Below, one piece after another: positions 36,752 to 64,000 of a stretch of 64,000 nt of DNA (positions are counted from its first letter, which is position 1; every line of letters begins with the position of its first letter). Below the pieces are notes generated by a model that had not been told where the DNA came from, made no database searches, and saw only the letters and a list, made by a program, of their open reading frames with translations. The stretch comes from Nitrospira lenta (GTDB lineage: Bacteria > Nitrospirota > Nitrospiria > Nitrospirales > Nitrospiraceae): NCBI RefSeq assembly GCF_900403705.1, contig NZ_OUNR01000001.1:372001-436000 (forward strand), read 5' to 3'. The position numbers and the translations under genes were made by a program.

Positions 36752-36766
36752 TACACGAGGCCCGTT

Positions 36767-40040: not shown

Positions 40041-40398
40041 TCAGATCAATGTCATCCCGCTCGTGGACGTCATGCTCGTGCTGCTGGTCATCGTACTGAC
40101 GACCGCCACCTTCATCAGCACCGGACAAATCCCCGTCAATCTCGCCAAAGCGAAGTCGGTCAGCGACCGCAAAGACGTGCCCCTCGTCATTACCCTCACA
40201 TCAGAAGGGCATCTATTCCTGAATGACAAGCCGATACCGGATGACGGCCTGCCCGCTGCGCTCGGGGAAGAATCGCGCGACGCGGCGGTGGTCGTTCGGG
40301 CGGATAAAGTGACCGTGCTCGAGCGCTTCGTCGCCCTCGTCGATGAAGTTAGAGGATTGGGGTTTCAACAGGTCAGCCTTGAGGTGATCCGGTTGTGA
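40021..40398 (+). CDS. exbD: ExbD-type biopolymer transport protein
   Basis: A 125-residue protein with one N-terminal helix containing the proton-path Asp (INVIPLVDVMLVLLVIVLTT) and a periplasmic ExbD domain. Partner of ExbB upstream and TonB downstream; the tonB ATG overlaps the exbD stop. Confidence 0.93.
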   Translation: MDRQQVDQINVIPLVDVMLVLLVIVLTTATFISTGQIPVNLAKAKSVSDRKDVPLVITLTSEGHLFLNDKPIPDDGLPAALGEESRDAAVVVRADKVTVLERFVALVDEVRGLGFQQVSLEVIRL

Positions 40399-41444: not shown

Positions 41445-41499
41445 TGGCCGATCGGCTTGATCGTACAGTCCGACTCTCGTCAGTTCTGCTACTACTCTC

Positions 41500-41544
41500 C
41501 CGCTCAAACTTTCGATCAATTACGATCTGAAAACGGGTCGGTAA
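41500..41544 (+). pseudogene. remnant of a tonB 3' end
   Basis: Read in frame this stretch gives PLKLSINYDLKTGR and a stop, nearly the same as the tonB end PIKFSISYDLKITR and stop 100 bp upstream. No upstream coding part remains. It looks like a leftover of a second tonB after deletion or recombination. The end of the minus-strand lipoprotein gene runs over it. Confidence 0.65.
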
Positions 41545-41890
41545 TTTTCGCCGGCTTCATCGCACAGTCCTGGTCATGCCAGTCGCGCAGCATTCCCTGC
41601 TGATCGAATGTGAGCTGATAGGCCCGGCAATATTCCTCTCTGGCATACCCGCTATAGCCGCTGGTCCCGCTGCCTCGCACAAAATATGTCCAGAGGACGC
41701 GTCCGTCCGGCTGCGGCTCCTGCTTATGGGGAGCTCCATAGCGCTTGGCCACCTCATCCTGCGTGACCTGATTCACTTTGCTCTGGAAATAGCCCGTTTC
41801 AAACTCCCCGCAAGCACCACAGAAAACCAGCCCCAGAACCAGACAACACCGAATCCATCGCATCATCGCATACGCCCGCCTTTGAGCCAT
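41516..41890 (-). CDS. small lipoprotein, hypothetical
   Basis: A 124-residue protein with a lipoprotein signal (CCLVLGLVFCGAC) and a region like SmpA/OmlA small lipoproteins (SKVNQVTQDEVAKRYGAPHK). Strands with WTYFVRGSG and CRAYQLTFDQQG follow. The last 10 residues are encoded by the reverse strand of the tonB remnant, so the C-terminus may be a recent addition. Function unknown. Confidence 0.65.
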   Translation of the reverse strand: MAQRRAYAMMRWIRCCLVLGLVFCGACGEFETGYFQSKVNQVTQDEVAKRYGAPHKQEPQPDGRVLWTYFVRGSGTSGYSGYAREEYCRAYQLTFDQQGMLRDWHDQDCAMKPAKITDPFSDRN

Positions 41891-41917
41891 CGTACCCCCT
41901 TCTCGAAAGAAATCTTC

Positions 41918-42934
41918 TTATGGATACCGTAGCCGGGATCGCAGTCCTGAGGAGACAGTCATCCTCCCGCGATCATCGATGATGACGGCTTCGACGTCCG
42001 GAAGGCGCTCGACCAGCGCCATTCCACGCTCTGGCCCAAGAACAAAAATACCTGTATCAAGCCCATCCGCGACTGTCCCTTCGGTGGCAATCACGGTGAC
42101 ACTCTGACATTTCCTCGCGGGCTCTAGCAATACCGGATCGAGGATATGGTGATACCGTATACCCGCCCGCTCAAAATACCGCTCGTAATCCCCGGCAGTC
42201 GAAATGGCTTCGTCCTGCAGATCGATCGTCGCGACCAGTGCACCGTCTTGTCGAGGATGGCGGATACCGACCGAAAATCCTTTCATCCCAGGCAAATTGC
42301 CGAACGCCTTAATGTCGCCGGACAACGCAATGACGCCTCCTATCGCGCCGGCCTTCTTCATCGCGTCGGCCGCCCGATCGGCGGCATACCCTTTACCGAT
42401 CCCGCCAATATCAATTCGCATCCCCCGTACAGGCAGAAAAATAGTATGGGCTGTTCGATCAACTCGGATCGCAGACCAATCGATCAACGGCTTCAGTGAC
42501 TGCAATTCCGCATGACTGGGAATCCGCTGATCGTCGACTACGCTCCAGGCTTCGACTGCAGGGCCAATTGCAATGTTAAACCCACCTTCGGTTAAACCAG
42601 CCATTTCAAGCGAACGCAGAACCACCTCCAAGGTTTCAGGACCAACCGCCACAGGCTCTCGTCCCGCGGCGGCATTCACCTGAGATACGTCACTGGTTTG
42701 AATCCACGTACTGAGAAGCTGCTCTAGTCGCTTCACCTCATGAAACCCCGCGTCCATTGAAGCCTGCGCAATGGCCTTAGTCGGAGCGACCGTCGTGATG
42801 GAGACCAGCGTCCCCATATGCATCTGGGCTCGTTTCCCCACGACAGGCGGTTCAGTGGAGCGGATCGTCCCACACCCCGCAAGCAGGATAACCATCACCC
42901 CCCCGATCACTCCTGAGAACCACGCTCGCATCAT
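41918..42934 (-). CDS. apbE: FAD:protein FMN transferase ApbE, lipoprotein
   Basis: About 338 residues, anchored by a lipoprotein signal (GVMVILLAGC). ApbE motifs: HMGTLVSITTVA, DIGGIGKGYAADRAADAM, LSGDIKAFGN and STAGDYERYFERAGIRYHH. It attaches FMN covalently to Thr/Ser in exported flavoproteins. The likely client is the FMN-binding protein at 45352-46038. ATG 42934 or 42931 follow the signal peptide. Divergent from the zinc-finger/porin cluster, sharing the Fur-type site. Confidence 0.92.
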   Translation of the reverse strand: MMRAWFSGVIGGVMVILLAGCGTIRSTEPPVVGKRAQMHMGTLVSITTVAPTKAIAQASMDAGFHEVKRLEQLLSTWIQTSDVSQVNAAAGREPVAVGPETLEVVLRSLEMAGLTEGGFNIAIGPAVEAWSVVDDQRIPSHAELQSLKPLIDWSAIRVDRTAHTIFLPVRGMRIDIGGIGKGYAADRAADAMKKAGAIGGVIALSGDIKAFGNLPGMKGFSVGIRHPRQDGALVATIDLQDEAISTAGDYERYFERAGIRYHHILDPVLLEPARKCQSVTVIATEGTVADGLDTGIFVLGPERGMALVERLPDVEAVIIDDRGRMTVSSGLRSRLRYP

Positions 42935-43035
42935 AATTTCACCATTTCCAGCGCCAAACCACACAACCACCCAGCCGTACGGCCTCACTATGCGGCACGC
43001 GATACCCTCTTGACAATGGAACCTCTAGCGAGATA

Positions 43036-43052
43036 CTAATAATCGTTCTCAA
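43036..43052. promoter_or_regulatory. candidate Fur-type operator between apbE and the porin cluster
   Basis: CTAATAATCGTTCTCAA; closely resembles classical Fur boxes (AATAATC-TTCTC). It sits 28 bp before the Com-type gene and about 100 bp before apbE, so it could control both directions. Confidence 0.6.
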
Positions 43053-43079
43053 TTTCATTTACCAGGATTGCCGACCACT

Positions 43080-43259
43080 ATGATCACTACATCAGCCTCA
43101 AATTCTGACACGTGTCATGGCACTGAAACCCGCTGCGAATGCGGGCAACTGATCGCTAAAGTGCGCGGGCAAGGGATCGAACTGAAATGCAAACGCTGCA
43201 AACGCATTGTCATCATTCCCTTCTCGTCCATCGAAGGATGGAGCACCGTCGCATCGTGA
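43080..43259 (+). CDS. Com-type zinc-finger protein, first copy
   Basis: A 59-residue protein with CECGQLIAKVRGQGIELKCK and KCKRC, i.e. two Cys pairs spaced as in the Mu Com zinc finger. Com of phage Mu binds the mom mRNA and lets it be translated. Chromosomal Com-like genes are known but hardly studied. It is the first gene after the Fur-type site and precedes a porin by 134 bp. A second copy lies at 51110. The role in activating the following gene is a hypothesis. Confidence 0.8.
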   Translation: MITTSASNSDTCHGTETRCECGQLIAKVRGQGIELKCKRCKRIVIIPFSSIEGWSTVAS

Positions 43260-43393
43260 GTCGATTCACGAAAGGAGGTCTCCACAGAACTACTGCAGCA
43301 TTCATTCGAGATGCCGTGCTGTGTACATACGCCAGACCAGAGACCGTCGAGTCCCGAGTCAGACCACAACCCAACTCACCGTGGAGGATACCG

Positions 43394-44842
43394 ATGAAGA
43401 TGCGGTCAATCCTCGGGGCTCTCATCATCGCCAGTTTGTCGGCTGTGCCGGCCTTGGCAGTCGATATGACCCCGGAGGAAATCAAGAAGTTAGTCGATGA
43501 CGCCGTGAACAAGAAGATGCAGGAGCACGAACGGCGAGAAAGTTCAGCCGAACGAAGCCTGGAGCGGAAGGACGGCCAACCCGGCACAGCGCAATATCCT
43601 ATGGCCTCCGGCCCTATCACCGACATTCGAGTCGAACGCAAGGGCGAAGAAAAGATTCCCTTGGGATTCGGATCGACCGGATCAGGAAAACTGATCTACG
43701 CGAAACCGTTCTTAAGCGCGCCCAAAGCGACGGTCGGCGGATATGTCGATGTGATGTACAACAATCTGTCGCGCCCCAATCTGGACAATCCTAGCCGCAA
43801 CAGTTTCGGCCAACAACGGCTGGTGCCGTTTATTTACGCCGACATTACAGATCATATTAAGTTTGCGACGGAACTCGAGTTTGAGCGAGGCGGAGCAAAT
43901 GCCCCTCAGACTGGCGATGGATCTTTTCAGATCGAGTTCGCCCAGCTGGACTATTTGATCCATGAAGCTATTAATCTGCGCGCCGGTATCCTGCTGATGC
44001 CGGTCGGCAAGTTCAACTTGCTGCACGATTCGCCGTTGAACGATCTCGTTGATCGTCCGATGGTCTCCCGCATCATTATCCCTAGCACCTGGTTCGAAGC
44101 CGGCGCTGGTATCTATGGAACTTTATACCCGACCTCTTTATCGAAGATCGACTACGAACTCTATGCGGTGAACGGCATGAGTTCGACGGCCGGAACCATC
44201 AACGATCTTGGAGTGCGCAGTGTGCGCGGCAGCGTCTCGCGAGATCGCGATCAAAGCAAGGCCATCGTCGGCCGGGTCGCCATCAGCCCGATGCTGGGAA
44301 TCGAAGTGGCCGGGTCCGGGTATCACGGACAACTGAATCCCGGTGGACAGACCAATAACGGGATCACCGGCGTCAGCAACATCACCATTGGAGCCGTAGA
44401 CTGGACGCTGCAACGAGGTCCTTTCGAGGTCATCGGAGAAGCTGCCTGGACAACCATTACGAATCCAGGGATCGGCCCGGGTAAGATGAGCGGCTACTAC
44501 GTGCAAGGTAACTACCACTTCATGCCGGAATTCCTGAAGACCTGGGCACCCAGTCACTTCACGGACGCATCGACATTTACCGCCGTCGTCCGGTGGGAAC
44601 AGGTCGATACCGATGTCGGCGACCGAACCCTGAACAACGCAGGCGGAGGCAACCGGCGGGAACTTAACCGGCTGACCCTGGGCCTCAACTTCAGGCCGAT
44701 TGAAGACACGGTCATTAAATTTGACTGGCAGCTCAACACTCAGAACAACGCAAGAGGGCTCGTTCCAGCTGGCGACCTGGCAACGAATACCAGTCTCTTA
44801 AATGGCAACGGCTTCCTGATTCAAGCCGCCACGTACTTCTAG
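43394..44842 (+). CDS. outer-membrane porin with coiled-coil N-terminus, first copy
   Basis: A 482-residue protein with signal peptide (LGALIIASLSAVPALA), a short predicted coiled coil (IKKLVDDAVNKKMQEHERRE), then a beta-barrel starting at GSTGSGKLIYAKPFL and ending ATYF with terminal Phe, the outer-membrane assembly signal. Aromatic girdle strands such as MSGYYVQGNYHFMPEF repeat. It resembles OprP/OprO-like or other 16-strand porins; substrate unknown. ATG 43394 after GGAGGA. A paralogue lies at 46785. Confidence 0.87.
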   Translation: MKMRSILGALIIASLSAVPALAVDMTPEEIKKLVDDAVNKKMQEHERRESSAERSLERKDGQPGTAQYPMASGPITDIRVERKGEEKIPLGFGSTGSGKLIYAKPFLSAPKATVGGYVDVMYNNLSRPNLDNPSRNSFGQQRLVPFIYADITDHIKFATELEFERGGANAPQTGDGSFQIEFAQLDYLIHEAINLRAGILLMPVGKFNLLHDSPLNDLVDRPMVSRIIIPSTWFEAGAGIYGTLYPTSLSKIDYELYAVNGMSSTAGTINDLGVRSVRGSVSRDRDQSKAIVGRVAISPMLGIEVAGSGYHGQLNPGGQTNNGITGVSNITIGAVDWTLQRGPFEVIGEAAWTTITNPGIGPGKMSGYYVQGNYHFMPEFLKTWAPSHFTDASTFTAVVRWEQVDTDVGDRTLNNAGGGNRRELNRLTLGLNFRPIEDTVIKFDWQLNTQNNARGLVPAGDLATNTSLLNGNGFLIQAATYF

Positions 44843-44851
44843 AAGAACCAT

Positions 44852-44880
44852 GAGGGGCCGCCTCGGAAAGGGGCGGCCTC
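44852..44880. other. hairpin between porin and lipoprotein genes
   Basis: GAGGGGCCGCC and GGCGGCCTC form a stem 10 bp after the porin stop, without a T-tract. It may set mRNA ends or stability rather than stop transcription. Confidence 0.5.
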
Positions 44881-44908
44881 TCAGCGAACAATAAGGCCGC
44901 GTACTATT

Positions 44909-45367
44909 ATGATGATGAAACGACTCGTTCCCCTCCTCCTGATGCCGGTGTTACTCACGGCCTGCGCCTCCATGAGTGGCATGCAGCAGCGGTTTGCGGT
45001 GTGCAGCTATGACCACGCCTGGGATGCGGCCCTTGATGCAGTGAAGGATCGCGCGGTCGTGACGAAAGACAAAGAAGACGGAATGATCGTCACCGGCTGG
45101 CTCGAAATTCCCATGCCAGGACGGACCTTTGGTGCCCTCCAACGCGATTTGGGGGATAGCAGAGATCGGTCCCGTATCACCCTGGTCGTCAAGCGTCTCA
45201 ACGATGTCACCAAGATCAGTTTTACCGAAGAGCGGCAGCGCTGGGCGTTCCGCGGCGGCTCACGCCTCTTCGGTTGGGCCTCCACCGATCCCTCGGCGGA
45301 AGTCATGGCCGATGTACAAAGCCGTCTGGATACAAAACTAAAGGAGCAAGGATGTTCTCTCAGCTGA
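44909..45367 (+). CDS. lipoprotein, hypothetical (BamC-like fold possible)
   Basis: A 152-residue protein with a clear lipoprotein signal (LLLMPVLLTACAS). The mature part has an alpha/beta pattern with HAWDAALDAVKDRAVVTKDK and SRITLVVKRLNDVTKISFTE, as in small BamC- or DUF3568-like domains. Lies between porin and FMN-binding protein and overlaps the latter's start by 16 bp, so it is part of this cluster. It could be an assembly or docking lipoprotein. Confidence 0.75.
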   Translation: MMMKRLVPLLLMPVLLTACASMSGMQQRFAVCSYDHAWDAALDAVKDRAVVTKDKEDGMIVTGWLEIPMPGRTFGALQRDLGDSRDRSRITLVVKRLNDVTKISFTEERQRWAFRGGSRLFGWASTDPSAEVMADVQSRLDTKLKEQGCSLS

Positions 45368-46038
45368 GTGCGTTCCGCACCGTTACGACCGTCTTGGTGT
45401 TAGTGGTCTCAGCTCTCCCGGCCTTTGCCGGCGAAAAGATCTGGGATAACGAGTTGCACCGATTTCTGAAAGACGACGACTTCAAGTATGAAGAATTTAT
45501 GACGGAAGAGGAGGCCGTGAAAACCATCCTCCCGAAGTCGCACCGCATACACAAGGAGCTAATCCGCCTGACACCGGACAAGAAAGAGCTCATCGAGCAG
45601 CGAATCGGCTGGAAGTTCCCAGAAGAATCCTTTGAGCTATACATCGGAGAGACCGGAGACAAGATCGACGGCTATGCCATGATCCACAACACCATCGGCA
45701 AGTACAAACACATGACCTATATGGTCGGCGTCGATTCGAAGGGCGCCTGCACGGACGTGGAGCTGCTGGTCTTTCGCGATGCCAGAGGCAGTGAGGTCGG
45801 GAAAAAGCGGTTCAATGCGCAATATGACGGTAGAACGGTATCCGACCCTATCCGGATCAACAAGGACATCATCAATATCAGCGGTGCCACCATGTCCGTC
45901 CGATCGATGAGCGCCGGCGTCAAGCGGGTCCTGGTCCTGGTCGACGAGTTTTACCTGAAGCCGGCCGGGCTGGGGAGCGATACCGTCACATCTCGCAAAT
46001 CTGAGAAGGGCATCTTTACATCCATTTTCGGCGACTAA
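45352..46038 (+). CDS. exported FMN-binding domain protein
   Basis: A 228-residue protein with signal peptide (TVTTVLVLVVSALPAFAGEK) and an FMN-binding domain as in RnfG/NqrC. The flavin attachment sequence is SGAT (residues 177-180, in NISGATMSVRSM), where Thr180 would carry FMN. The usual Asp three residues before is absent (Ile), so it is slightly atypical. ApbE encoded nearby is the likely modifying enzyme. ATG 45352 follows AAGGAG. Expected to pass electrons in the periplasm. Confidence 0.87.
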   Translation: MFSQLSAFRTVTTVLVLVVSALPAFAGEKIWDNELHRFLKDDDFKYEEFMTEEEAVKTILPKSHRIHKELIRLTPDKKELIEQRIGWKFPEESFELYIGETGDKIDGYAMIHNTIGKYKHMTYMVGVDSKGACTDVELLVFRDARGSEVGKKRFNAQYDGRTVSDPIRINKDIINISGATMSVRSMSAGVKRVLVLVDEFYLKPAGLGSDTVTSRKSEKGIFTSIFGD

Positions 46039-51280: not shown

Positions 51281-51452
51281 TCACAGTCGTTCAACCACGC
51301 CACACACATGCGTGTGGGAAGGCCAGAGGACGTGAGTCCAGAGCCCGATATTGCAACAGGGTCATTGCGTCCGTCTTGCCGGCGCCGCCGCGCTGACAGG
51401 ACGTATTGGAATGGGATTCGCGCCACACATGACGAAGCCTTCGGAGTCAATC

Positions 51453-51989
51453 ATGCTTACTGGACGTATTCACACCCTCACGGCAGAACTGAGCCGCTAT
51501 GCCCCGCAATGGGCCGATCGACTCGCCCAGGTGAAATCGGAACGCGAACTGCTGGAAGTGGTCAGCTCCCTGTTCAACCTGGCGCACATCCTCAAGCCGG
51601 AAGACGAGGACACGGCGCCCCCGCAGCCATCGCTTCCCACGCGCATTCACAAGTTTATGACCGACAATCTTCACAGGGGCTTGACCCTCAAACTCCTATC
51701 GCAGTTTCTCGGATACTCGGAAAAGTACTGCTCGGACCTCTTCCACAGCACGATGGGCGAATCGTTCTCCGCGCATCTGAAGCGTCGCCGTCTTGAAATC
51801 GCCAGCCGCTTGCTGGAGACCACGGACAAGGGCGTGGCTGAAATTGCGACGGTTATCGGATTCTGCGATCAGTTTGCGTTCAGCCATTTCTTTAAACGCG
51901 CGACCGGCCAATCTCCGATCCAGTTTCGATCAGAACGCAGCCGGCGGCTCTCCAAACCACGCCCAGGCCCGGCAAGGAACCCCTCATGA
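51453..51989 (+). CDS. AraC-family transcriptional regulator
   Basis: About 178 residues. The C-terminal AraC domain is complete: first HTH LTLKLLSQFLGYSEKYCSDL, second HTH GVAEIATVIGFCDQFAFSHF, ending FFKRATGQSPIQFR. The short N-terminal part is helical and not a cupin. ATG 51453 follows GGAG by 7 bp; in-frame ATGs at 51411 and 51429 are alternatives. Its stop overlaps the adaptor gene by 4 bp, so it probably controls the exporter encoded next. Confidence 0.88.
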   Translation: MLTGRIHTLTAELSRYAPQWADRLAQVKSERELLEVVSSLFNLAHILKPEDEDTAPPQPSLPTRIHKFMTDNLHRGLTLKLLSQFLGYSEKYCSDLFHSTMGESFSAHLKRRRLEIASRLLETTDKGVAEIATVIGFCDQFAFSHFFKRATGQSPIQFRSERSRRLSKPRPGPARNPS

Positions 51990-53245
51990 CGTCCCCGCCG
52001 ATTCGAGATGCGGATGTGTCCGTCCTCACCTTGCCACGGGAAGAATCCCCGCAAGAACCCCGCCCATCAAAGCGCTGGCTCAGATGGGTCGGGGCCGGCA
52101 TCGCCGGCTGCGGCTTCTTGGCGGGACTCTATTGGATGCTGCCGGAATTTTCCGCCTTGCCGGAAGTTGACACGGCGCCGGTACGGATCGTCGGAGGCGC
52201 CATGCCGTCATCAATGTTGAGCGCCAGTGGCTATGTCGTCGCGCAGCGACAAGCCTCTGTCGCGTCCAAAGGCACCGGCCGCCTGGAATATCTCGCCGTC
52301 TCCGTCGGCAGTCGCGTCACGACCGGTGACATCATTGCCCGGGTTCAACAGGACGATGTCCAAGCCGTTCAGCGCCAGGTACAGGCGCGCTTGGATGTGG
52401 CAAAAGCCGCGTTGACCAACGCCCAAGCCGAACACCGGGATGCCCGGCTCAGCTATGCGCGAGCCCAAGCCTTGCTGCCCAATCAGTTTGTGTCGCAAGC
52501 CGAGTTCGACACCACCGCCACGCGCCTCCGGCGCGCGGAAGCGACGGTGCGATCGGCGGCGGCGGCCATTACGGCGGCGGAAGCCGACGTCCAGACAGCC
52601 GACGTCATGTTGGAGAACACGCTGATACGCGCGCCGTTCGACGGCACCGTCTTAAAGAAATTTGCCGAGATCGGCGAAGTGGTCGCGCCCATGGCCAGCT
52701 CTGCCAGTTCGCGTGGCGCGGTGGTCCTCATCGCGGATATGACCTCGCTCGCGGTAGAGACGGAGATCTCAGAATCGTCGTTCTCACAAATCGCGCAGGG
52801 CCAATCAGCCGAGATCACTCTGGACGCCCTCCAGGGCAAGCACTATCCCGCGATGGTCGAACAAATCGTGCCGACAGCCGACCGATCCAAAGGCACGGTG
52901 TTGGCGAAAGTTCGCTTCGTCGAGCGTGACGATCGTGTCCTCCCTGAAATGAGCGCCAAGGTCTCCTTCTTACCGGTGGTGCGGACGAACGAGTCGGCTG
53001 CACCGCGGCTGTTCGTTCCTTCATCCGCGCTTGTGCAGCACAACGGCCGGCCCATCCTCTATGTGCTCGAAAACGAGACCGTCCGCGAAGTCTCCGTTGA
53101 AGAAGTATCCCGGAGCGGCGGAGACAGCGAAGTGCGCGGAACCCTGACCGCGTCGTCACACGTCATCCTTGCGCCGCCGTCATCGCTGCACACGGGCATG
53201 AACGTCCGGTCACGAATCCCCCAGCGAGAGGAGCCTCAGCCATGA
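51986..53245 (+). CDS. HlyD-type periplasmic adaptor of an ABC exporter
   Basis: A 419-residue membrane-fusion protein with one N-terminal helix (VGAGIAGCGFLAGLYWML), lipoyl half (GRLEYLAVSVGSRVTTGDII), an alpha hairpin (about residues 130-205), second lipoyl half (LIRAPFDGTVLKKFAEIGEV) and barrel domains. Works with the ATPase and two FtsX-like permeases that follow, all overlapping or closely spaced. Substrate unknown; DevBCA- and MacAB-like systems move lipids, peptides or siderophores. Confidence 0.9.
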   Translation: MTSPPIRDADVSVLTLPREESPQEPRPSKRWLRWVGAGIAGCGFLAGLYWMLPEFSALPEVDTAPVRIVGGAMPSSMLSASGYVVAQRQASVASKGTGRLEYLAVSVGSRVTTGDIIARVQQDDVQAVQRQVQARLDVAKAALTNAQAEHRDARLSYARAQALLPNQFVSQAEFDTTATRLRRAEATVRSAAAAITAAEADVQTADVMLENTLIRAPFDGTVLKKFAEIGEVVAPMASSASSRGAVVLIADMTSLAVETEISESSFSQIAQGQSAEITLDALQGKHYPAMVEQIVPTADRSKGTVLAKVRFVERDDRVLPEMSAKVSFLPVVRTNESAAPRLFVPSSALVQHNGRPILYVLENETVREVSVEEVSRSGGDSEVRGTLTASSHVILAPPSSLHTGMNVRSRIPQREEPQP

Positions 53246-53922
53246 CCGCCTCTGTTGTTGAATTCCAGCACGTCTCCAAATCCTATTTTCGAGGAGAACA
53301 AGAAATCCCGGTTCTCAAAGACTTCAGCTTGTCTGTACCCCCCGGACGATTTCTTGCCATCATGGGCCCGTCCGGATCCGGCAAGACGACCATCCTCAAT
53401 CTGGTCGCCGGACTCGACCGTCCGACCCAGGGAACAATCCGCGCGGCTGGGTTGGCCGTCTCACAGCAAGGGGAGTCCGATCTCGCCCAATGGCGAGCCA
53501 GGCACATTGGCTTCATCTTCCAGTTCTACAATCTTATTCCGGTGTTGACCGCATCGGAAAACGTCGAATTGCCGCTGCTGCTGAGTACCCTGACGCGGCA
53601 CCAACGCGTCAAGCACGTCCAGGCGGCCCTCGGGCTCGTCGGGTTAACGGACCGGATCCATCACTATCCCCGTCAGTTGTCCGGAGGACAGGAGCAACGC
53701 GTCGGGATCGCGCGCGCCATTGTCAGCGACCCCACGATCTTACTGGCGGATGAGCCCACCGGGAATCTCGATCGAACCGCGGCCGAATCCGTCATGGCGC
53801 TCCTCTCGCGGCTGCATCGGGACCTTAACAAGACCATTCTCATGGTGACCCACGATCCACGGGCCGCCGAATACGCTCAAGAGACTCTCCAGTTCGATAA
53901 AGGAACGGTGACGAGCTCATGA
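53242..53922 (+). CDS. ABC exporter ATP-binding protein (LolD/DevA-like)
   Basis: A 226-residue ATPase: Walker A GPSGSGKTT, Q-loop FQFYNLIPVL, signature LSGGQEQRVGIAR, Walker B LLADEPTGNLD and switch His in VTHDPRAA. Overlaps its neighbours on both sides by 4 bp. Confidence 0.93.
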   Translation: MTASVVEFQHVSKSYFRGEQEIPVLKDFSLSVPPGRFLAIMGPSGSGKTTILNLVAGLDRPTQGTIRAAGLAVSQQGESDLAQWRARHIGFIFQFYNLIPVLTASENVELPLLLSTLTRHQRVKHVQAALGLVGLTDRIHHYPRQLSGGQEQRVGIARAIVSDPTILLADEPTGNLDRTAAESVMALLSRLHRDLNKTILMVTHDPRAAEYAQETLQFDKGTVTSS

Positions 53923-55088
53923 CGTTCGGGACATTGATCGTTCGTAATCTTCGGCGGCATCCCCTGCGCGTCGTGCTGACTGCGCTCGGCATCGCCACGG
54001 TCATCCTCGCCTTCAATCTAATTGTCACGACGGTCCGCGCCTGGTACGCAGGCGTCGAGGCCTCGGTCCCGAACCGACTGATCACTCGCCAGGCCGCCTC
54101 GCTGTCCATTCATCTTCCGCTCGCCTATCGAGACCGTATCGCCGCGCTGGATGGAGTGACCGGCGTCAGCTACGCCAACTGGTTCGGCGGCGTCTACCGG
54201 GATGCCAAGGGATTCTTCCCGCAGTTCGCCGTTGAGCCGGCGTCGTTTCTGGACCTTCATCCAGAACTGTCTGTACCGGCAGCGGAGCGCCAAGCGTTTC
54301 TCACTGATCGAAGGGGATGTCTGATCGGTCGCCGGCTGGCAGCGCTCTACGGATGGAAAGTCGGCGATGTCATCGCGCTCAAAGGGACACTCTATCCCGG
54401 AGACTGGGAATTCGTCGTGCGCGGGATCTATCGCGGGGCCGACGCCGCCACGGATGAAACCTGGATGCTCCTGCGCTGGGATTATATGAACGAACGCCGA
54501 CAGCAATTAGACCCCGATCGAGCCGGCACGGTCGGCTGGTACGTCATTCGCATTGCCGATCCCTCTCTCGCCGGGCGCGTGAGCCGATCGATCGATGCAG
54601 AATTTGCCAATTCCACTTCGGAGACCAGGACAGAAACCGAGCAAGCGTTTCAAGCCGGATTCGTCGCCATGTCCGGATCCATCATCAACGCACTGAAGCT
54701 GCTGGCGATCGTACTCAACGGCGTTACCTTGCTGGTGCTCGCCAACACCCTCGTGATGGCCGTGCGCGAACGCACGAAGGAGCTGGCCGTCCTGCGGACG
54801 CTCGGATTTCAGCCACGGCATCTGGCGGGCTTGGTCACGGGAGAAGCGCTGCTCATTGCGGTCATAGGCTCGGCCCTGGGCATTGCCATCACCATTCCCG
54901 CCTCACACCTGTATGGAACCCTCGTGGCCGCTAAACTGGGAAATTTCTTCCAACATTTGACCCTGTACCCGAGCACCTTGTTACTGAGCGCCTTCGTCAC
55001 ACTGGGGATCGCCGTCTGCGCGGCGGCATTTCCTATCGTGGCCCTGTTGCGCGACAAGGTTGCGGAGGACTTGCATAACGCCGGATAG
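53919..55088 (+). CDS. FtsX-like ABC permease, first subunit
   Basis: A 389-residue protein: N-terminal helix (VVLTALGIATVILAFNLIVT), large periplasmic domain, three C-terminal helices with NTLVMAVRERTKELAVLRTL, the FtsX signature. Forms a heterodimer with the next gene product. Confidence 0.9.
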   Translation: MTFGTLIVRNLRRHPLRVVLTALGIATVILAFNLIVTTVRAWYAGVEASVPNRLITRQAASLSIHLPLAYRDRIAALDGVTGVSYANWFGGVYRDAKGFFPQFAVEPASFLDLHPELSVPAAERQAFLTDRRGCLIGRRLAALYGWKVGDVIALKGTLYPGDWEFVVRGIYRGADAATDETWMLLRWDYMNERRQQLDPDRAGTVGWYVIRIADPSLAGRVSRSIDAEFANSTSETRTETEQAFQAGFVAMSGSIINALKLLAIVLNGVTLLVLANTLVMAVRERTKELAVLRTLGFQPRHLAGLVTGEALLIAVIGSALGIAITIPASHLYGTLVAAKLGNFFQHLTLYPSTLLLSAFVTLGIAVCAAAFPIVALLRDKVAEDLHNAG

Positions 55089-55099
55089 GACCCTGATCC

Positions 55100-56272
55100 A
55101 TGACACTTCTCTTGGCCTACAGTCTCCGAAACGTCTGGGTGCGGAGCAGTACGGCAGCGCTGACCATCGCGGGCCTGGCACTGGTCAGCCTGATCCTGCT
55201 GGCGGTCCTCATGCTGGGCAATGGATTGAACCGGGCATTGATCGAAAGCGGTTCACCGGACAATGTCCTTCTGCTGCGGAAAGGCGCGACCACGGAGATC
55301 GCGAGCGGGATCTACCGCGATCAAGCGCACATCGTGAGCACGCTCGCCGACATCGCGCGCACGCCCGGCGGCGCTCCCCTGGCGATCCCCGAATTGGTCG
55401 CCCTGATCAGCCTCGCAAAAAGCGGGACCGACTCCCCTGCCAATGTGGTGGTCCGAGGAACACAGCCGGAAGCCTTCGCGCTGCGTCCGCAGGTTCGGCT
55501 GACCCAGGGGCGCGCCTGGCAACCCGGCACGACTGAAATCGTCATCGGCGCTCAAATCGCCGCGCGCTTTCTCCGTGACGGTATCGGCACGCATCTACGT
55601 ATCGGGAAACGGGACTGGCTCGTCGTCGGTATCGCGGAGGCGCAGGGCACCGCCTTTGAGTCCGAGATTTGGGGCGACGTCGACCAACTCATGTCCGCGT
55701 ATGGACGGGACTCCTACTCGTCGCTCACCTTACGTCTCTCCAGCCTGTCGGCCTTTCACGCGCTGGATGCCGCCATCGCGGCAGACACCAGACTCCTGCT
55801 GCAAGTGAAACGAGAACGCGAGTATTACCTCGAGAAATCGCTGGCGATGGCCACCTTCATTCGCCTCCTGGGCTTCACCTTCACCTTCATCTTTGCCGTG
55901 GGCGCGGTCCTGGGAGGCACCATGACCATGTACGGCGCCGTCGCGTCCCGCACAAGGGAGATCGGGATGCTGAGGGCGCTGGGATTCAAGCCGCGCCAAA
56001 TTCTCTCGGCCTTCTTGTTTGAGTCCCTGCTGCTCGGCGCCTTGGCCGGGCTGTTGGCAATCGGCGGCGGCACGGCCTTGCAGTTTGTCACGCTCTCGAC
56101 GATGAACTTCAGCACGTTCTCAGAACTCGCCTTTCGCCTAACACTGACTCCCGCCTCCGCTCTGATTACGATGGCGTTTGCGCTGGGCATCAGCATGATC
56201 GGCGGAATCCCTCCGGCGGTTCGGGCAGCCCGCTTGTCTGTCGCCGCCGCATTACGCGCCCCCGGCCGATAA
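55100..56272 (+). CDS. FtsX-like ABC permease, second subunit
   Basis: A 390-residue protein with the same layout: helix near residues 15-45 (LTIAGLALVSLILLAVLMLG), periplasmic domain, and C-terminal helices with MYGAVASRTREIGMLRALGF. Last gene of the AraC/adaptor/ATPase/permease operon. Two separate permeases distinguish it from the MacB-type system at 3.5 kb. Confidence 0.9.
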   Translation: MTLLLAYSLRNVWVRSSTAALTIAGLALVSLILLAVLMLGNGLNRALIESGSPDNVLLLRKGATTEIASGIYRDQAHIVSTLADIARTPGGAPLAIPELVALISLAKSGTDSPANVVVRGTQPEAFALRPQVRLTQGRAWQPGTTEIVIGAQIAARFLRDGIGTHLRIGKRDWLVVGIAEAQGTAFESEIWGDVDQLMSAYGRDSYSSLTLRLSSLSAFHALDAAIAADTRLLLQVKREREYYLEKSLAMATFIRLLGFTFTFIFAVGAVLGGTMTMYGAVASRTREIGMLRALGFKPRQILSAFLFESLLLGALAGLLAIGGGTALQFVTLSTMNFSTFSELAFRLTLTPASALITMAFALGISMIGGIPPAVRAARLSVAAALRAPGR

Positions 56273-56461
56273 CCCGTCCCCCTCTCTTCCTCGGCAAACG
56301 AATCGGTCTTGGATCGGAGCATGAGGGCAATGAGCATACGATTCCAGCACCTGAACATGGCGTCCGAATCGCAACCGGCGTAGGTAGCTGCATGTGACAT
56401 ATGCGTGTGACTACAGATACCGGTGTTGCGGTGGCATTCCAATTTATTGGAGGAGGGACAC

Positions 56462-57058
56462 ATGAAGGGAATAGCACAGACGATGCACCGAACGGTTTGG
56501 AGCTTCTTACTGTGCAGCTTGCTCGCACTCAACGCTCAGGCGGCAACAGTGTATGATGAAGCCCTGCGGGGCGACCTCTCCAACGACCACCTACACCCCA
56601 CTGCTGTAACCCTCGGGGTCGGGCAGAACCTGATCTTGGGTTCTACCGTTCACCAGCCTTCGCTGGATCGAGATTTTTTCACGGTGACCATCGGTGCAGG
56701 CCACGCGTTGAATGCTATCGTGTTGTCGAGCTATACGACCACCGACGACCAGTCGTTCTTCGGCCTGGCCCGTGGAAGCGACTTTAAGACGTTAGGGTTC
56801 AGTAGCCTCTCAGGGTGGGCCCTGATCGGCACACTGCCCGGACTTTCAGTCGGGGACAATCTGCTCGACTTCGTTGCCGATGGCCCGATTGGGCCAGGAG
56901 CCTATAGTTTCTGGCTTCAGGAAACAGAGGGAACGACAACCTACACGCTGGATTACCAAGTCGCTCCCGTTCCAATTCCAGCTGCGCTGCCGCTGTTTTT
57001 GTCCGGCCTGTTGGGCATCGGAGCGATGGCTCGCAAGGTGCGATACACAATGCGATGA
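56462..57058 (+). CDS. VPLPA/PEP-CTERM sorted protein, first copy
   Basis: A 198-residue exported protein. Signal peptide (SFLLCSLLALNAQAATVYDE), a beta-rich body, and a C-terminal sorting signal: APVPIPAALPLFLSGLLGIG, then AMARKVRYTMR, i.e. VPxPA, a hydrophobic helix and a basic tail. Exosortase-type enzymes cut and anchor or secrete such proteins, often with exopolysaccharide. No exosortase gene lies in this window. ATG 56462 after GGAGGAGGG. Confidence 0.85.
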   Translation: MKGIAQTMHRTVWSFLLCSLLALNAQAATVYDEALRGDLSNDHLHPTAVTLGVGQNLILGSTVHQPSLDRDFFTVTIGAGHALNAIVLSSYTTTDDQSFFGLARGSDFKTLGFSSLSGWALIGTLPGLSVGDNLLDFVADGPIGPGAYSFWLQETEGTTTYTLDYQVAPVPIPAALPLFLSGLLGIGAMARKVRYTMR

Positions 57059-57953: not shown

Positions 57954-58336
57954 ATCGCATCGAGATCGTACGGCGGCAACGTATGGCACTCACTTCATGA
58001 AGACACGATTGCGCGGGATGAGTCCTGCCGCGATCTACACGCACATCTTTGTCGGGAGTGAAGACCGCTTTGCACCCTATTGCATAACGCCTAAAGCGAC
58101 GCTCGTTGCCGGTTCTCGTAATTCACCCACACCATAAAACGGCCCTCCCCTCACCGCATACCACCCGTCGACAACTCCAATCTCCGTTACAACTGCCTAG
58201 CAGACCCCAAACTCGTAGCGCGTATCTCGATCGAACACAGTTATCTGAAACACACTTCAGCGGGACATCTGGAAAGAGAACATGCGCACCAGGCGGCTAA
58301 ACATAGCCACAGGACGGCGGAACCCTGTATATGAGT
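57954..58336. other. intergenic region before the second tonB
   Basis: About 380 bp. Short open frames exist but none has a ribosome site or known motif. It probably carries the promoter for tonB, together with the Fur-type site at its right end. Confidence 0.4.
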
Positions 58337-58353
58337 TTGAGAATTGATCTCAA
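58337..58353. promoter_or_regulatory. candidate Fur-type operator before the second tonB
   Basis: TTGAGAATTGATCTCAA, with perfectly complementary 6-bp ends TTGAGA and TCTCAA, 20 bp before the start codon. Best palindrome of the three sites. Confidence 0.65.
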
Positions 58354-58373: not shown

Positions 58374-59510
58374 ATGGCACCTCTCGATCATAACCACGCA
58401 CTGCTCACGGATCTTCAGTCGGCCTTTCTGTCGCAAGACCGGGCATTGTCATGGGCCTGTTCTGTCTGCTTTCACACCATGGCACTGGCGGTGGCTGCGG
58501 TCTCTGCGGTCTCACTGAGGGAAGTCCCCCAGGCCCCGACTCTCGTGTCCCACATGGAGTTCCTTCTTACCGATCCGCAAAGCGAAGCGGACCAGACGGC
58601 CTCCCCTGATTCGCTCGGTTCAGCCAATCCGGCGGCATCCCAAGAAACGGCCGCCCTTGCTGAAGATTCCTCACCGGTCACGTCCCCCCCGCCTCCTTCA
58701 ATCCAGGCATCTTCTGCAGAAGTGGTTGAACCACACCCCGTCAACGAACCATCGAAGGTTCAACCAATGGAGCGGCAGGTCACCCCTGCCGCACCGGCAC
58801 TGCACACGACAGCAAAATCTACCGCCGCGAGTGATCCCGTTCCCATGGACGGTCCGATGCCAATCAAACGGCCGATTGAGCCCATGCCGCCTCTGAATGA
58901 ATCCCGTCCGCCCACCGACTGGTCTCCCTCCGATGCGAAGACGAGCCCCGTCACGGAGACCGTCGCCACGAATGTCCACGATCACGCGGAGCTGTCGTCG
59001 CCTGTTCCACCGGAGCGTGCGCAGCATCCTGTCGAGGCAAGCGCCAGCGTCGCGCCGGCGTCACCGCACAATAAGGAGGCGGCCTCCTTGCCGCAAACAG
59101 ATCTCGCATCTGCGACCGATTCACAAACCGGTGATTCAGGCTCCTCCGCCACTTCCTCCTCGGACACCGTCGCTCTGAACCATCCAACGATCGCACGGGC
59201 GGTTCCGGCGACACAGCACTTGGCATGGCTGACGGAATTGCTGAGACGACAGATCCTGAGCCTCCAAGCCTATCCCCATAGGGCTCGCACACAAGGCTGG
59301 GAAGGGATCGTCATTGTCAAAACCACGATCAAGAGCGATGGCACCCTGGTTGAAGCGGTAGTCACGAAAAGTTCGGGGTACGACGCGCTTGACGAGGATG
59401 CGCTGCAACTGATGCATCGAGTCTGTCCGATTCATTTGCCGCGAGACCTTGGGCAGTCCCAAATCGCGGTCATGATTCCCATCCGTTACAGACTCGATGA
59501 ATTCAACTGA
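58374..59510 (+). CDS. tonB: TonB energy transducer, second copy
   Basis: A 378-residue protein with an N-terminal helix (SVCFHTMALAVAAVSAVSL), a long Pro/Ser/Thr-rich spacer (about residues 60-275) and a C-terminal TonB domain: GWEGIVIVKTTIKSDGTLVE, KSSGYDALDEDALQLM and a final strand IAVMIPIRYRLDEF. It likely serves the receptor at 62434 and shares ExbB/ExbD with the first copy. ATG 58374 chosen because the earlier in-frame codon falls in the operator. Confidence 0.9.
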   Translation: MAPLDHNHALLTDLQSAFLSQDRALSWACSVCFHTMALAVAAVSAVSLREVPQAPTLVSHMEFLLTDPQSEADQTASPDSLGSANPAASQETAALAEDSSPVTSPPPPSIQASSAEVVEPHPVNEPSKVQPMERQVTPAAPALHTTAKSTAASDPVPMDGPMPIKRPIEPMPPLNESRPPTDWSPSDAKTSPVTETVATNVHDHAELSSPVPPERAQHPVEASASVAPASPHNKEAASLPQTDLASATDSQTGDSGSSATSSSDTVALNHPTIARAVPATQHLAWLTELLRRQILSLQAYPHRARTQGWEGIVIVKTTIKSDGTLVEAVVTKSSGYDALDEDALQLMHRVCPIHLPRDLGQSQIAVMIPIRYRLDEFN

Positions 59511-59539: not shown

Positions 59540-61225
59540 ATGTTCACATTCAGACAAACGACAGGAAGTCTGGCCATCCTGTTCATCTTCGGCATCGGCT
59601 GGATGCCGGCCCATGCCGCACCTGTGCCCAAGGTCGGTTTCCTCGTCGTCGCTCCTGACCGCGGGTTCCTCGGCAATCAGGAAATCCGCTCGCTCGTCGC
59701 GGAGTTCAAGAAATCCTACCCCGCCGCGCTCGGGTTGATCGGGAAAGACTACACCGGGGTGCAGGGCGAATATGCCGCATATCTCACCCGTGCAGCCCAG
59801 GAGTTGAAACAGAACGGCGTCACGGAGATCGTCGCCATTCCGCTGTTTCTGTCTGACGCCGATCCGCTGCTCACGCGAATCAGACCGCTCATAGCGGCCT
59901 ATTCTGGGGAGCTACCCGTGCGGTGGGCGCCGGCGATGGCGCACGACTATCTGATCGGGCAAATCGTGCTCGACCGTATCGCTGCGCTCAGCGCGGCCTC
60001 TGAATCGGATCGATTGATCCTCGTCGGCGCCGGCGCAACGGACGAGGCCAATGAACACCGGTTGAAAGCCGACCTGGAACATCTCCTGGCCTACGTCGCG
60101 CGATACCGATCCTTCCGCGAGACAGACGTCGTCGTGTACTACGAGCGCGACGCGACTAATGCCGAACAGAAAAACAAGGACATCAAAGCCCACCTTTTGT
60201 CCCGAATGGCGAAACAAGGCCGGACCCTGTTGGTGCCCGTCTTCATCGGCCCGAAATTCGATTACTCCATGTCGCTGGCAGCCTGGATGGATGCCCAATT
60301 CAAGCATACCAATGCGGCCTATAAGCCGGACGAATTGCTGCCTCACCCGAACGCCCTCTTGTGGTTGAAAAAGACGGCCAACCGCGAGACCGCCTTAGCC
60401 TCGAACGAGATTGGCGTCGTAATCATGCCTCACGGGTCAACCCAGCCCTGGAACGACGCCGTTGAAACAACCATCACGCCACTCAGGTCCAAGTATCCGA
60501 TCGAGATGGCCTATGGCATGGGCGATCCGCATATCATTCAGGACGCCGTCTCCCGTCTTGAGCAGCAGGGAATCAGACGGATCGTTTTTGTCCGAATGTA
60601 TGCCTTGGATCACCATATGAAACCGGTCACGGACTACATTCTCGGCCTGGCCGAGAGTGCCCCTGCAGGCGGACACGATCATGCGTCTGAGGTCCCGCCT
60701 CAAGTCAGAACAGCCGCGCTCTTCTCCACCTTCGGAGGCTACGAGCAGAATCCGGAGATCGCCCTCGTTCTGCACAAACGGATCGCCGAGCTGAGCAAAG
60801 ACCCAGCCAATGAGACCGTGGTGCTGCTGGCGCACGGCGAGGGCACTGACGAGGGGGATGCTCAATGGATTTCCGTCATGAATCAGAACATCGCCCGGCT
60901 TCGCCTGGACCCTCACTGCGCCAAACTGAAAGCCATCACGGCGCTGACTGTCAGAGAAGACTGGCCCAAGGAACGGGAGCAGGCGGTTGCTGCCGTCCGC
61001 ACAATGATCGAAGAAGCGAGCAAACAGGGACGCGTGCTCGTCATCGCCAATCGCCTGTACGGATCGGGGCCTTACAAGACCATGCTCAGCGGGTTGAATT
61101 TTGAGTTGAGTGAAAAGGGGTTGGTCGATCCCGTGCTCACGCGATGGCTGGAGGACGGGCTGACGCGCATGACGGCGGAGTTGATCCCGTCAAAAAGCGA
61201 ACAATCCGCCGCCGCCCATCCCTAG
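59540..61225 (+). CDS. secreted tandem CbiX-like chelatase
   Basis: A 561-residue protein with a cleavable signal peptide (LAILFIFGIGWMPAHA). It appears to hold four CbiX/sirohydrochlorin-chelatase-like modules. Modules 3 and 4 keep the catalytic-type His: IMPHGST (His298) and LAHGEGTDEG (His432). Modules 1 and 2 have VVAPDRG and LVGAGATDEA, where His is lost. CbiX-type enzymes insert Co or Fe into tetrapyrroles, usually in the cytoplasm. An exported form next to tonB and a heme-type receptor could handle metal-tetrapyrroles in the periplasm. ATG 59540 after GAAGGAGGG. Confidence 0.8.
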   Translation: MFTFRQTTGSLAILFIFGIGWMPAHAAPVPKVGFLVVAPDRGFLGNQEIRSLVAEFKKSYPAALGLIGKDYTGVQGEYAAYLTRAAQELKQNGVTEIVAIPLFLSDADPLLTRIRPLIAAYSGELPVRWAPAMAHDYLIGQIVLDRIAALSAASESDRLILVGAGATDEANEHRLKADLEHLLAYVARYRSFRETDVVVYYERDATNAEQKNKDIKAHLLSRMAKQGRTLLVPVFIGPKFDYSMSLAAWMDAQFKHTNAAYKPDELLPHPNALLWLKKTANRETALASNEIGVVIMPHGSTQPWNDAVETTITPLRSKYPIEMAYGMGDPHIIQDAVSRLEQQGIRRIVFVRMYALDHHMKPVTDYILGLAESAPAGGHDHASEVPPQVRTAALFSTFGGYEQNPEIALVLHKRIAELSKDPANETVVLLAHGEGTDEGDAQWISVMNQNIARLRLDPHCAKLKAITALTVREDWPKEREQAVAAVRTMIEEASKQGRVLVIANRLYGSGPYKTMLSGLNFELSEKGLVDPVLTRWLEDGLTRMTAELIPSKSEQSAAAHP

Positions 61226-61412: not shown

Positions 61413-61607
61413 ATGTCGACACGGGTAGATAACGCCGAAGTTAAGTCGCGGCTCTCCGCGTTGTATGACGAGCTCATTACGCACGACGGGTTCGCGGAGA
61501 TGTCCGTGGAGATCCGCCTCCTCAAGCGCGGACAGAAAGAAGTGATCCTCCATTGCGGCAGGCAATACCGGTTCGTCATCAACTGCCCTGACGCCCCAGG
61601 GCGATAA
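61413..61607 (+). CDS. small hypothetical protein, 64 residues
   Basis: From ATG 61413 (after AAAGGACAAG): MSTRVDNAEVKSRLSALYDE, then EIRLLKRGQKEVILHCGRQY with two cysteines in the last third. Not recognised. The helix-then-strands layout is compact and charged. Lies between the CbiX-like gene and a VPLPA-CTERM gene, same strand. Confidence 0.55.
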   Translation: MSTRVDNAEVKSRLSALYDELITHDGFAEMSVEIRLLKRGQKEVILHCGRQYRFVINCPDAPGR

Positions 61608-61757
61608 CGAAAGGAGGGCTGAGGGCTTCGGCATGTTTTTGTTACCGACGTTGAGGCAGGCGGTGCGGGGCCGCTGCTTTATTTTGACAGCCGCCGGCCG
61701 TATTCCGGCCTCAGCGAGTGAGGCGGTGAAGGCCAATCAGTGAAAGGGATTCTTGCC

Positions 61758-62384
61758 ATGAACAACAGAACGTCACTTTTTACAGGGGGCCTGCTCGGCC
61801 TGGGGCTCTTGCTGGCCGCCGGCCAGCCGGCGCATGCCGTGCAGGCCGTTTGGGACGGCGCGTATACGCAGGTGGGGCCGCACTATGCCGAATGGAACGC
61901 GTTCAACGACAACATTCCTGGTGGGAATATTCAGGACAACACACCGGATGTCAGCCATATCGGCGGCGGGAACATCTACAGCCCTTCCTCTCCAACAGCG
62001 TTTACCCTGACGGCAGGCAATCTGGGCAGCGGAACGTCTAACGTGTTTCTGCGGGTCGCCACCGTGGGCGCGTTCGATACCACGCTCAACCAGAGTCTCA
62101 CCGGGTTCACGCTGAACGGCGTCTCCGGCGCCTACTCGCAGTTGTTCAACGAAACCATCACCGGCGGATTCGGCGGGAACGAAGTCGAAGGCCTTGTGAG
62201 CTGGCTGGGTGTGACGCACACCGGATCGTTGAATATCGCGTTCCACGCCATCGGCAGCAGCGTGAGCCTGGACCAGCTTTCCCTTGATGTGGCCCCGGTG
62301 CCATTACCCGCCGCAGTGTACCTGATGGGTTCTGGACTTGCGGGAATCGCGGCCATGGCTCGGCGCAGACAGCGAGCCGTCTAA
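61758..62384 (+). CDS. VPLPA-CTERM sorted protein, second copy
   Basis: A 208-residue exported protein with signal peptide (LLGLGLLLAAGQPAHA), a Gly/Asn/Thr-rich beta body and a textbook C-terminus: APVPLPAAVYLMGSGLAGIA followed by AMARRRQRAV. Sorted by an exosortase-type system elsewhere in the genome. Its place between a CbiX-like chelatase and a TonB-dependent receptor suggests a surface protein tied to the same uptake function, which is an inference. Confidence 0.88.
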   Translation: MNNRTSLFTGGLLGLGLLLAAGQPAHAVQAVWDGAYTQVGPHYAEWNAFNDNIPGGNIQDNTPDVSHIGGGNIYSPSSPTAFTLTAGNLGSGTSNVFLRVATVGAFDTTLNQSLTGFTLNGVSGAYSQLFNETITGGFGGNEVEGLVSWLGVTHTGSLNIAFHAIGSSVSLDQLSLDVAPVPLPAAVYLMGSGLAGIAAMARRRQRAV

Positions 62385-62410: not shown

Positions 62411-62434
62411 TGGCCGCCTGCCGAAGGGCGGCCA
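62411..62434 (+). other. hairpin at the start of the receptor gene
   Basis: TGGCCGCC (62411-62418) pairs with GGCGGCCA (62427-62434); the first base of the proposed ATG is the last base of the stem. It may end the previous transcript or limit translation start. Confidence 0.5.
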
Positions 62435-64000
62435 TGCGAATGCGTATATGCAGCATGAATTGCGCACACTGGGGAATTGTCATGACGGTCGTGGCACTGC
62501 TGCATGCATGGCCTGTTCAGGGGGGGGCGGCGGATATTCGTCCGTTGCCCAACCCGCTGCCCGCAGATCAGGAACGCCGGAGTATCGCCGCGAGCAGCCC
62601 AGCGCCAGCGGCGCTGAGCCAAGCCACGACCGCGGAACAGAACCGTGGGGAGAGCCGATCGCACATGACAGAGCGCAATGACACTGCGGCTGCGCGGCCA
62701 TCGATGGAGACGCCGAGTCTTGAGCAAGGAGACACGCTGATGATCGCGGAAGTGGAAGTGACAGGGAGACGCGAGGCCGTCGAATTCGATCCGACGCGCT
62801 CGCGCACGACCCTGACCGCCAAGGAACTAGAACGCCGGCAGTCGGACAATGTCTTCACGGTGCTCCAGGATACCCCCGGCGTCTCGGTCAACGGCGGACC
62901 GCTCGCCAGCGGCATGAAATTCAACATTCGCGGTTTCAGTGACTCAGAAGACGTGCTGATCAAGCTCGACGGCGCCATGCGCAATTTCGAGAAGTACCGC
63001 TTCGGCAGCGGCGTCTTCATCGAGCCTGAATTATTGAAAGCCATCGAGGTGACACGCGGGCCGGCGGGCGCGCTGCAAGGCTCCGGCGCGATCGGCGGAG
63101 TGGTGGAGATGCGGACCAAGGACGCCGCCGACCTCCTGGCGCCCGGGGATCGCGCAGGCGCGCGCATCAAGAGCGGGTGGTCCAGCAACAATGACGAAAA
63201 GCTTGGATCGGCGAGTGTCTATGGCGTCGTGCTCGATTCGATCGATCTCCTCGCCAATTTCACCCGGCGCTGGTCTGGCGACATCACCACGGCGAGCGGC
63301 GACCCATTAAAAAACACGAAGTCGAACCGCTTGAGCGGATTGGCAAAGGCGACGTACCGCCCGCGGCCCGGCGCATCGATCACCTTCGCAGAGACGTACT
63401 CCCAGGAAAGCACCTTGCAGCCCTTTGACGCCACGATCGGTATTCCCGGGGTGTTTGGATTTGTGCGGCGAGCCGTGACCGACAGCACTCCCACCGCCAA
63501 TTTCGAATACACGCCGGCCTCGCACACGCTTGCGCCCTGGATCAATCTCAGAGGCACGCTCGGTCATACGAGCACCAGCGTCACCGATTCCGATAGACAA
63601 AATGCCAAAGGCGTGTTGATCCCGAACTCGCCTACAAATTTCTTCGACTACCGGATTCTGACGCTCGATCTGAGAAACACCTCTATGCTGCGCATCAACC
63701 CCGTGCGCAATGCGCTCACCTACGGCATCCAATACAACCACAACAGCCGCACGACCAAGACCGAGCAGGTCAGCCCCGTCGGACGACAGACCGTGGACAA
63801 CCTGAGTCAGCCGTCAGGTCTCAAGTCCAATCTGGCCTTCATGGTGGAGGATCGACTGGAGATCGGCGACATGACTTTCACCGCCGGCCTCCGCCACGAC
63901 CAGTATGCCGTCGAGGTCAACGCACAAGAGACTCGCACTCTGTTGCAAACCGAAGGCCGCAGCCCGCGCATTGAATTCGCGAAGACCGTGCCCAGCGCCG
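62434..64000 (+). CDS. TonB-dependent receptor, heme/hemoglobin-type, N-terminal part
   Basis: An open frame continues past the window end. Signal-like N-terminus (MRMRICSMNCAHWGIVMTVV, ending near HAWPVQGG), a Pro/Ala/Ser-rich stretch of about 70 residues, then the plug domain: VEVTGRREAVEFDPTRS, FTVLQDTPGVSVNGGP, FNIRGFSDSEDVLIKLDGAM, RFGSGVFIEPELLKAIEVTR and GSGAIGGVVEMRTKDAADLL. The phrases around FGSGVFIEPELLK and TKDAADLL resemble hemoglobin/heme receptors. Barrel strands follow. The start could also be ATG 62455 or 62482. Confidence 0.88.
   Translation, partial: MRMRICSMNCAHWGIVMTVVALLHAWPVQGGAADIRPLPNPLPADQERRSIAASSPAPAALSQATTAEQNRGESRSHMTERNDTAAARPSMETPSLEQGDTLMIAEVEVTGRREAVEFDPTRSRTTLTAKELERRQSDNVFTVLQDTPGVSVNGGPLASGMKFNIRGFSDSEDVLIKLDGAMRNFEKYRFGSGVFIEPELLKAIEVTRGPAGALQGSGAIGGVVEMRTKDAADLLAPGDRAGARIKSGWSSNNDEKLGSASVYGVVLDSIDLLANFTRRWSGDITTASGDPLKNTKSNRLSGLAKATYRPRPGASITFAETYSQESTLQPFDATIGIPGVFGFVRRAVTDSTPTANFEYTPASHTLAPWINLRGTLGHTSTSVTDSDRQNAKGVLIPNSPTNFFDYRILTLDLRNTSMLRINPVRNALTYGIQYNHNSRTTKTEQVSPVGRQTVDNLSQPSGLKSNLAFMVEDRLEIGDMTFTAGLRHDQYAVEVNAQETRTLLQTEGRSPRIEFAKTVPSA

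Follow-up and report, generated by a model that had tools for sequence, protein, structure and literature searches.

What does an exported protein built of four chelatase-like modules do between a tonB gene and the gene of a heme-type TonB-dependent receptor? The question is raised by a 64,000-nucleotide stretch of the Nitrospira lenta genome (contig NZ_OUNR01000001.1, positions 372,001 to 436,000; hereafter the window, to whose first letter positions refer), where export signals, fold, conserved histidines, neighbourhood, Fur-type boxes and the metal triad of a companion protein could be read from the sequence. The explanation that we favour, with modest confidence, is a Fur-controlled, TonB-dependent heme uptake in which the four-module protein, CbiX4, would act as carrier, and the companion, CbiX2, together with a reduction step, as remover or exchanger of the metal. 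Its parts differ in strength: the locus very likely serves iron uptake, its ligand is probably heme, and de-chelation of heme by CbiX2 is a possibility that we rate somewhat below even.

The CbiX4 reading frame begins with ATG behind a strong Shine-Dalgarno sequence (AAGGAGGG), ends with TAG and is separated from the tonB stop by 29 bases (Table 1). Its N-terminus, MFTFRQTTGSLAILFIFGIGWMPAHA followed by AP, reads by eye as a Sec signal peptide, and signal peptides are also present on CbiX2 and on distant CbiX4 homologues. Against Pfam CbiX the protein scores 28.4 bits (cut-off 22) with module 1 as the best stretch, the matches to NCBIfam CfbA are weak and located on module 3, and the predicted secondary structure consists of four beta-alpha repeats. 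CbiX4 is present in 20 of 296 Nitrospirota genomes, from 10 genera; the Manganitrophus homologue is a "hypothetical protein" in public annotation, and our searches of the open-access literature turned up neither a four-module CbiX nor a Nitrospira locus of this kind. In one Nitrospira genome (L070) and on one Manganitrophus plasmid (L089) the gene is in pieces or rearranged, by decay or assembly error. A tandem CbiX4 pair, 34% identical to the window's protein and accompanied by several near-consensus Fur boxes, occurs at L066:1498-6484, and both of its copies are without His near 358/359.

Table 1. Features of the locus in the window, all on the forward strand
Feature	Position	Strand	Remarks
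AraC-type regulator and MacA/ABC/two-permease exporter	51351..56272	+	upstream of tonB-CbiX4 in related loci too
Fur-type box TTTGAGAATTGATCTCA	58336..58352	+	21 bases 5' of tonB ATG
tonB	58374..59510	+	TonB_C 2.6e-14
CbiX4, exported four-module class II chelatase-fold protein, 561 aa	59540..61225	+	
CbiX4 signal peptide	59540..59617	+	cleavage after AHA, judged by eye
CbiX4 module 1 (residues 32-150)	59633..59989	+	without active-site His; from secondary structure and alignment
CbiX4 module 2 (residues 157-283)	60008..60388	+	active-site position without His; H269 (60344-60346) invariant, 24/24
CbiX4 module 3 (residues 291-418)	60410..60793	+	invariant H298, codon 60431-60433
CbiX4 module 4 (residues 425-548)	60812..61183	+	invariant H432, codon 60833-60835
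Small ORF, 64 aa, putative	61413..61607	+	between CbiX4 and receptor
Exported VPLPA-CTERM (PEP-CTERM-type) protein	61740..62384	+	TIGR03370 2.2e-8
TonB-dependent receptor, heme type	62434..64000	+	runs to about 64857, beyond the window; Plug and barrel

The putative 64-residue frame gave no family match in a profile search; it also stands beside CbiX4 in L056 (77%), with a similar frame in L016 and L017, and the gene of the VPLPA-CTERM protein is retained in L011, L017, L056 and L070. Exported proteins of the VPLPA/PEP-CTERM type, a surface-sorting tag that here accompanies heme-type receptors, are encoded on both sides of the operon, at 56456-57058 and between the small frame and the receptor. 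No dedicated inner-membrane importer for heme or ferrous iron was seen in the operon, and the ABC genes adjoining it are of the MacAB/Lol exporter type.

The top structural match of modules 1-2 (residues 31-287) is Bacillus SirB (Z 17.3, rmsd 3.6, 230 residues aligned), followed by ferrochelatases, CbiX (4ccs), periplasmic CbiK and Porphyromonas gingivalis FetB, which we take to be the same protein as IhtB. Modules 3-4, folded alone, match SirB (Z 13.0, rmsd 4.2, 226 aligned), CbiK-P (Z 11.6) and FetB (9b86; Z 11.2), and their best Foldseek match is periplasmic CbiK 2xvx (3.5e-5). Unrelated folds enter the lists at Z of about 9-10. A type I periplasmic-binding-protein fold was considered and rejected, its Z of about 8-10 lying below the 13-17 of SirB, and a PDB sequence search with CbiX4 alone or with modules 1-2 returned nothing useful. 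With pLDDT 69 and pTM 0.45 and 0.56, confidence in the models is moderate, so that they support the fold and not its fine geometry. By sequence and fold CbiX4 belongs to the class II chelatase fold superfamily (CbiX/SirB/CbiK), modelled as two SirB-like bilobal units within one chain.

Regulation by iron is suggested by a palindrome, TGAGAATTGATCTCA, which lies 5' of tonB as a Fur-type box. It was noticed by eye and its pattern was chosen after inspection, so that its score in the window carries little weight. A Fur-type box occupies the same position in all ten Nitrospira-type loci, in some of them as a variant nearer to the Fur consensus (TGAGAATAATTATCA in L015), and the mean pairwise identity among the ten is 0.84 in the box, 0.62 in the left flank and 0.30 in the right flank. 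Boxes that depart from the consensus in no more than one position also lie beside CbiX4 genes or operons in L063, L065, L066 and L067; near the distant CbiX4 genes of L065-L067, four near-consensus boxes were seen against 0.0 expected. The single FUR-family gene of the genome is encoded inside the window at 35236-35589, and this gene and the promoter box would place the CbiX4 locus in the Fur regulon. About 12-23 kb upstream of the locus, an iron cluster (35125-46038) includes Fur, an FbpABC-type solute-binding protein with permease and ATPase, exbB-exbD-tonB, an ApbE flavin transferase, a porin and an exported FMN_bind protein, and suggests extracytosolic flavin-based reduction.

The gene order of the Nitrospira-type loci is AraC-MacA-ABC-permeases-tonB-CbiX4-receptor-(regulator)-CbiX2-PepSY, and in other genera CbiX4 is found alongside TonB, ExbB, receptors, sigma/FecR, PepSY_TM and a ZIP-type gene. 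For instance, a distant relative (L065) has the order exbB-exbD-tonB-CbiX4-receptor-HmuY, the last belonging to a heme-carrier family (9.3e-19), and Manganitrophus plasmids carry CbiX4 with a sigma-factor-like gene, a receptor, PepSY and a ferritin-like gene. TonB or a TonB-dependent receptor lies within about 9 kb of CbiX4 in 15 of the 17 loci fetched, against a background of 4.6% of the N. lenta genome within that distance of either (own locus left out); the 17 loci are not all independent, and the enrichment holds even at a background of 20%. A sequence-only reading of the window had described an exported protein of four CbiX-type modules between TonB and a receptor, and had proposed structure prediction and a search for the same gene order elsewhere. 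This part of it stands: export signal and modules agree with Pfam CbiX, secondary structure and fold, both halves have SirB as top match, TonB and the receptor are real by TonB_C and receptor profiles, and the uptake neighbourhood is conserved in other genomes. Of the two results named there as refuting, a fold unlike that of chelatases and a neighbourhood that is not kept, neither came about.

The complete receptor matches the heme receptor model TIGR01785 at 2.3e-91 and 307.3 bits, just below the cut-off of 316.85, and a motif search of the window's receptor found no FRAP/NPNL motifs. Might the substrate of the locus instead be a ferric siderophore or some other chelate of iron, with CbiX4 as a chelatase-fold binding protein for that ligand? 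Several receptor types do occur in the same slot, two of them swapping in the Nitrospira-type loci, L063 has sigma-FecR genes and L088 a sigma-factor-like gene, and PepSY reductases also serve siderophores. However, the best receptor profile is that for heme, HmuY adjoins CbiX4 in L065 and CbiX2 in L087, and the fold is that of tetrapyrrole enzymes, and we consider a siderophore or other chelate unlikely.

CbiX2, an exported two-module protein of 313 aa, has its gene shortly beyond the end of the window, downstream of the receptor gene (C1:438527-439468; window-equivalent 66527-67468), and matches Pfam CbiX at 58.2 bits (1.1e-15). Its triad H40-E77-H110 (L013 numbering) is intact, matches that of CfbA and SirB, and is kept in all aligned copies from Nitrospira and Persicobacter. 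Full CbiX2 is present in nine of the 296 Nitrospirota genomes, each of which also has CbiX4, and is absent from 11 of the 20 genomes with CbiX4. In Bacteroidota the orthologue, a lipoprotein, is about 48-50% identical to CbiX2 and has the same triad; its gene lies beside those of a receptor and HmuY, both of which it precedes on plasmids of Persicobacter (Bacteroidota). On two of these plasmids a single reading frame of 1223 or 1211 aa lies between CbiX2 and HmuY (L087:9851-13522 and L090:8893-12528), and in L087 its start resembles a membrane FMN_bind and 4Fe-4S reductase while its end is a Plug with a TonB receptor barrel; such a fusion of a reductase of the inner membrane with a receptor of the outer membrane is difficult to account for. 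In L015 (14605-16245) and L072 an exported protein like animal heme peroxidase adjoins the CbiX2-PepSY genes. In N. lenta, CbiX2 is followed on its 3' side by a PepSY_TM-like (PepSY-type) gene and then by bacterioferritin genes on the other strand, and a connection of PepSY-like clusters with Fur and with the reduction of iron outside the cytosol has been described (PMC8238504).

SirB holds its metal by His10, Glu43 and His76, and CfbA, being a symmetric dimer, has two His-Glu-His sets (PMC11301274). In an alignment of 24 full-length CbiX4 homologues from about ten genera, the only invariant histidines (24/24) are H269, H298 and H432. The active-site histidines are H298 (PHGST) of module 3 and H432 (AHGEG) of module 4, while nearly all homologues lack His at the equivalent positions of modules 1 and 2, just as had been noticed in the window's sequence. 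The equivalent of Glu43 in module 3 is Gly326, the His75/76 position falls on Lys361 in a profile alignment to CfbA, and the sites of modules 1, 2 and 4 are more decayed than that of module 3; the His-Glu-His site of SirB and CfbA is incomplete in all four modules, with the first His alone kept (H298, H432). A His pair in a "DHHM" motif was tried as the second catalytic His and rejected, since it shifts between 358 and 359, is missing in L065 and L066, and is not the residue that the CfbA alignment selects.

An active periplasmic chelatase or de-chelatase, whose modules 3-4 use H298, H358/H359 and H432 on the metal, would accord with the invariance of H298 and H432, with the His that most sequences have at 358 or 359, and with metal exchange by FetB as a precedent (PMC13402209). 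The replacement by Gly326 and Lys361, the L065 and L066 copies without any His in the 358/359 region, and the intact triad of the companion CbiX2 argue against it, and we regard it as quite unlikely. Judged on its residues, CbiX4 appears to stand outside the active class II chelatases. The sequence-only proposal that CbiX4 loads or strips metal in the periplasm is thus not upheld, as its modules lack the His-Glu-His set (PMC11301274) and the exported CbiX2, by virtue of its triad, is the better candidate enzyme; a tetrapyrrole such as heme, also named there, is still the most likely ligand, with binding as what we infer. Since most catalytic residues of CbiX4 are gone, heme carrying is the more likely role. 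The counterparts of H298 and H432 in the CfbA dimer are His9 and His9', and because these are the first histidines of two halves that face one cleft, a tetrapyrrole site shared by both is plausible by analogy. That CbiX4 is instead a biosynthesis or salvage chelatase for cobalamin, siroheme or F430 with a misread export signal is very improbable, for although CbiX and CfbA profiles match, this role is set aside by the signal peptides on CbiX4, CbiX2 and distant homologues, the Fur-type boxes with the uptake neighbourhood, and further CbiX genes elsewhere in the genome, which could serve biosynthesis.

In our preferred reading, heme uptake with CbiX4 as carrier, the receptor would bring heme, a metallo-tetrapyrrole, into the periplasm with energy from TonB. 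CbiX4, a catalytically degenerate chelatase, would bind the tetrapyrrole and serve as a periplasmic carrier or buffer; the binding site probably lies between H298 and H432, in the cleft of modules 3-4. From this carrier CbiX2 with its full His-Glu-His site may remove or exchange the metal. Heme as ligand, binding rather than catalysis by CbiX4, de-chelation by CbiX2 and reduction by PepSY are the steps that we infer. The adjacent PepSY-type membrane protein would aid CbiX2 by reducing iron, which might then be stored by the bacterioferritin encoded next door; a reductase is included because Bacteroides HmuS, a de-chelatase that frees iron from heme, needs a reductant (PMC12583661), and because PepSY is tied to iron reduction (PMC8238504). 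HmuS is a functional parallel to the CbiX2 model, with a CobN-type fold unrelated to CbiX. The Pfam profiles used, for HO-1-type heme oxygenase, HemS and the C-terminal domain of FeoB, gave no match in the genome, and its one FecCD importer, apart from a weaker second match, lies beside a different receptor. More tentatively, Nitrospirota and in part Bacteroidota may share an envelope route to heme iron without HO-1-type heme oxygenase, in which a dead CbiX4 carrier, CbiX2 and flavin- or PepSY-type reduction would yield periplasmic Fe(II).

The closest precedent is IhtB/FetB of the P. gingivalis IhtABCDE locus, an exported CbiK-like protein which, as CbiX4, is encoded beside a TonB-dependent receptor, whose structure (9b86) matches both CbiX4 halves, and which is thought to take metal from heme (PMC10913741, PMC13402209). 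FetB, a lipoprotein, is about half as large as CbiX4 and works with an ABC importer, IhtCDE, whereas CbiX4 has four modules and an incomplete active site, with tonB in its operon and a second exported CbiX; neither a lipobox in CbiX4 nor IhtCDE-like importer genes in the operon were found. Desulfovibrio vulgaris CbiK-P (2xvx), also exported and of the class II chelatase fold, has two modules instead of four and, unlike CbiX4, is not known to be linked to a TonB receptor; it is an active cobaltochelatase that binds heme at its subunit interface. According to the title of a paper cited in PMC11301274, it has turned into a heme-binding protein. Bacillus SirB (CbiX-L) and archaeal CfbA (CbiX-S) share the fold and are cytoplasmic enzymes with a His-Glu-His site (PMC11301274). 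A duplication of the single module of CbiX-S is known to have led to the two-module CbiX-L (PMC7689651); CbiX4 takes this another stage on, with four modules whose sites have decayed.

The module history of class II chelatases, so far from one to two, is hereby extended to four. Furthermore, the pairing of a decayed with an intact exported CbiX could allow direct tests of heme de-chelation by a chelatase fold outside Porphyromonas. Nitrite-oxidising and comammox Nitrospira are rich in heme enzymes, and their iron acquisition is poorly described; the locus provides a concrete candidate for heme uptake in these bacteria.
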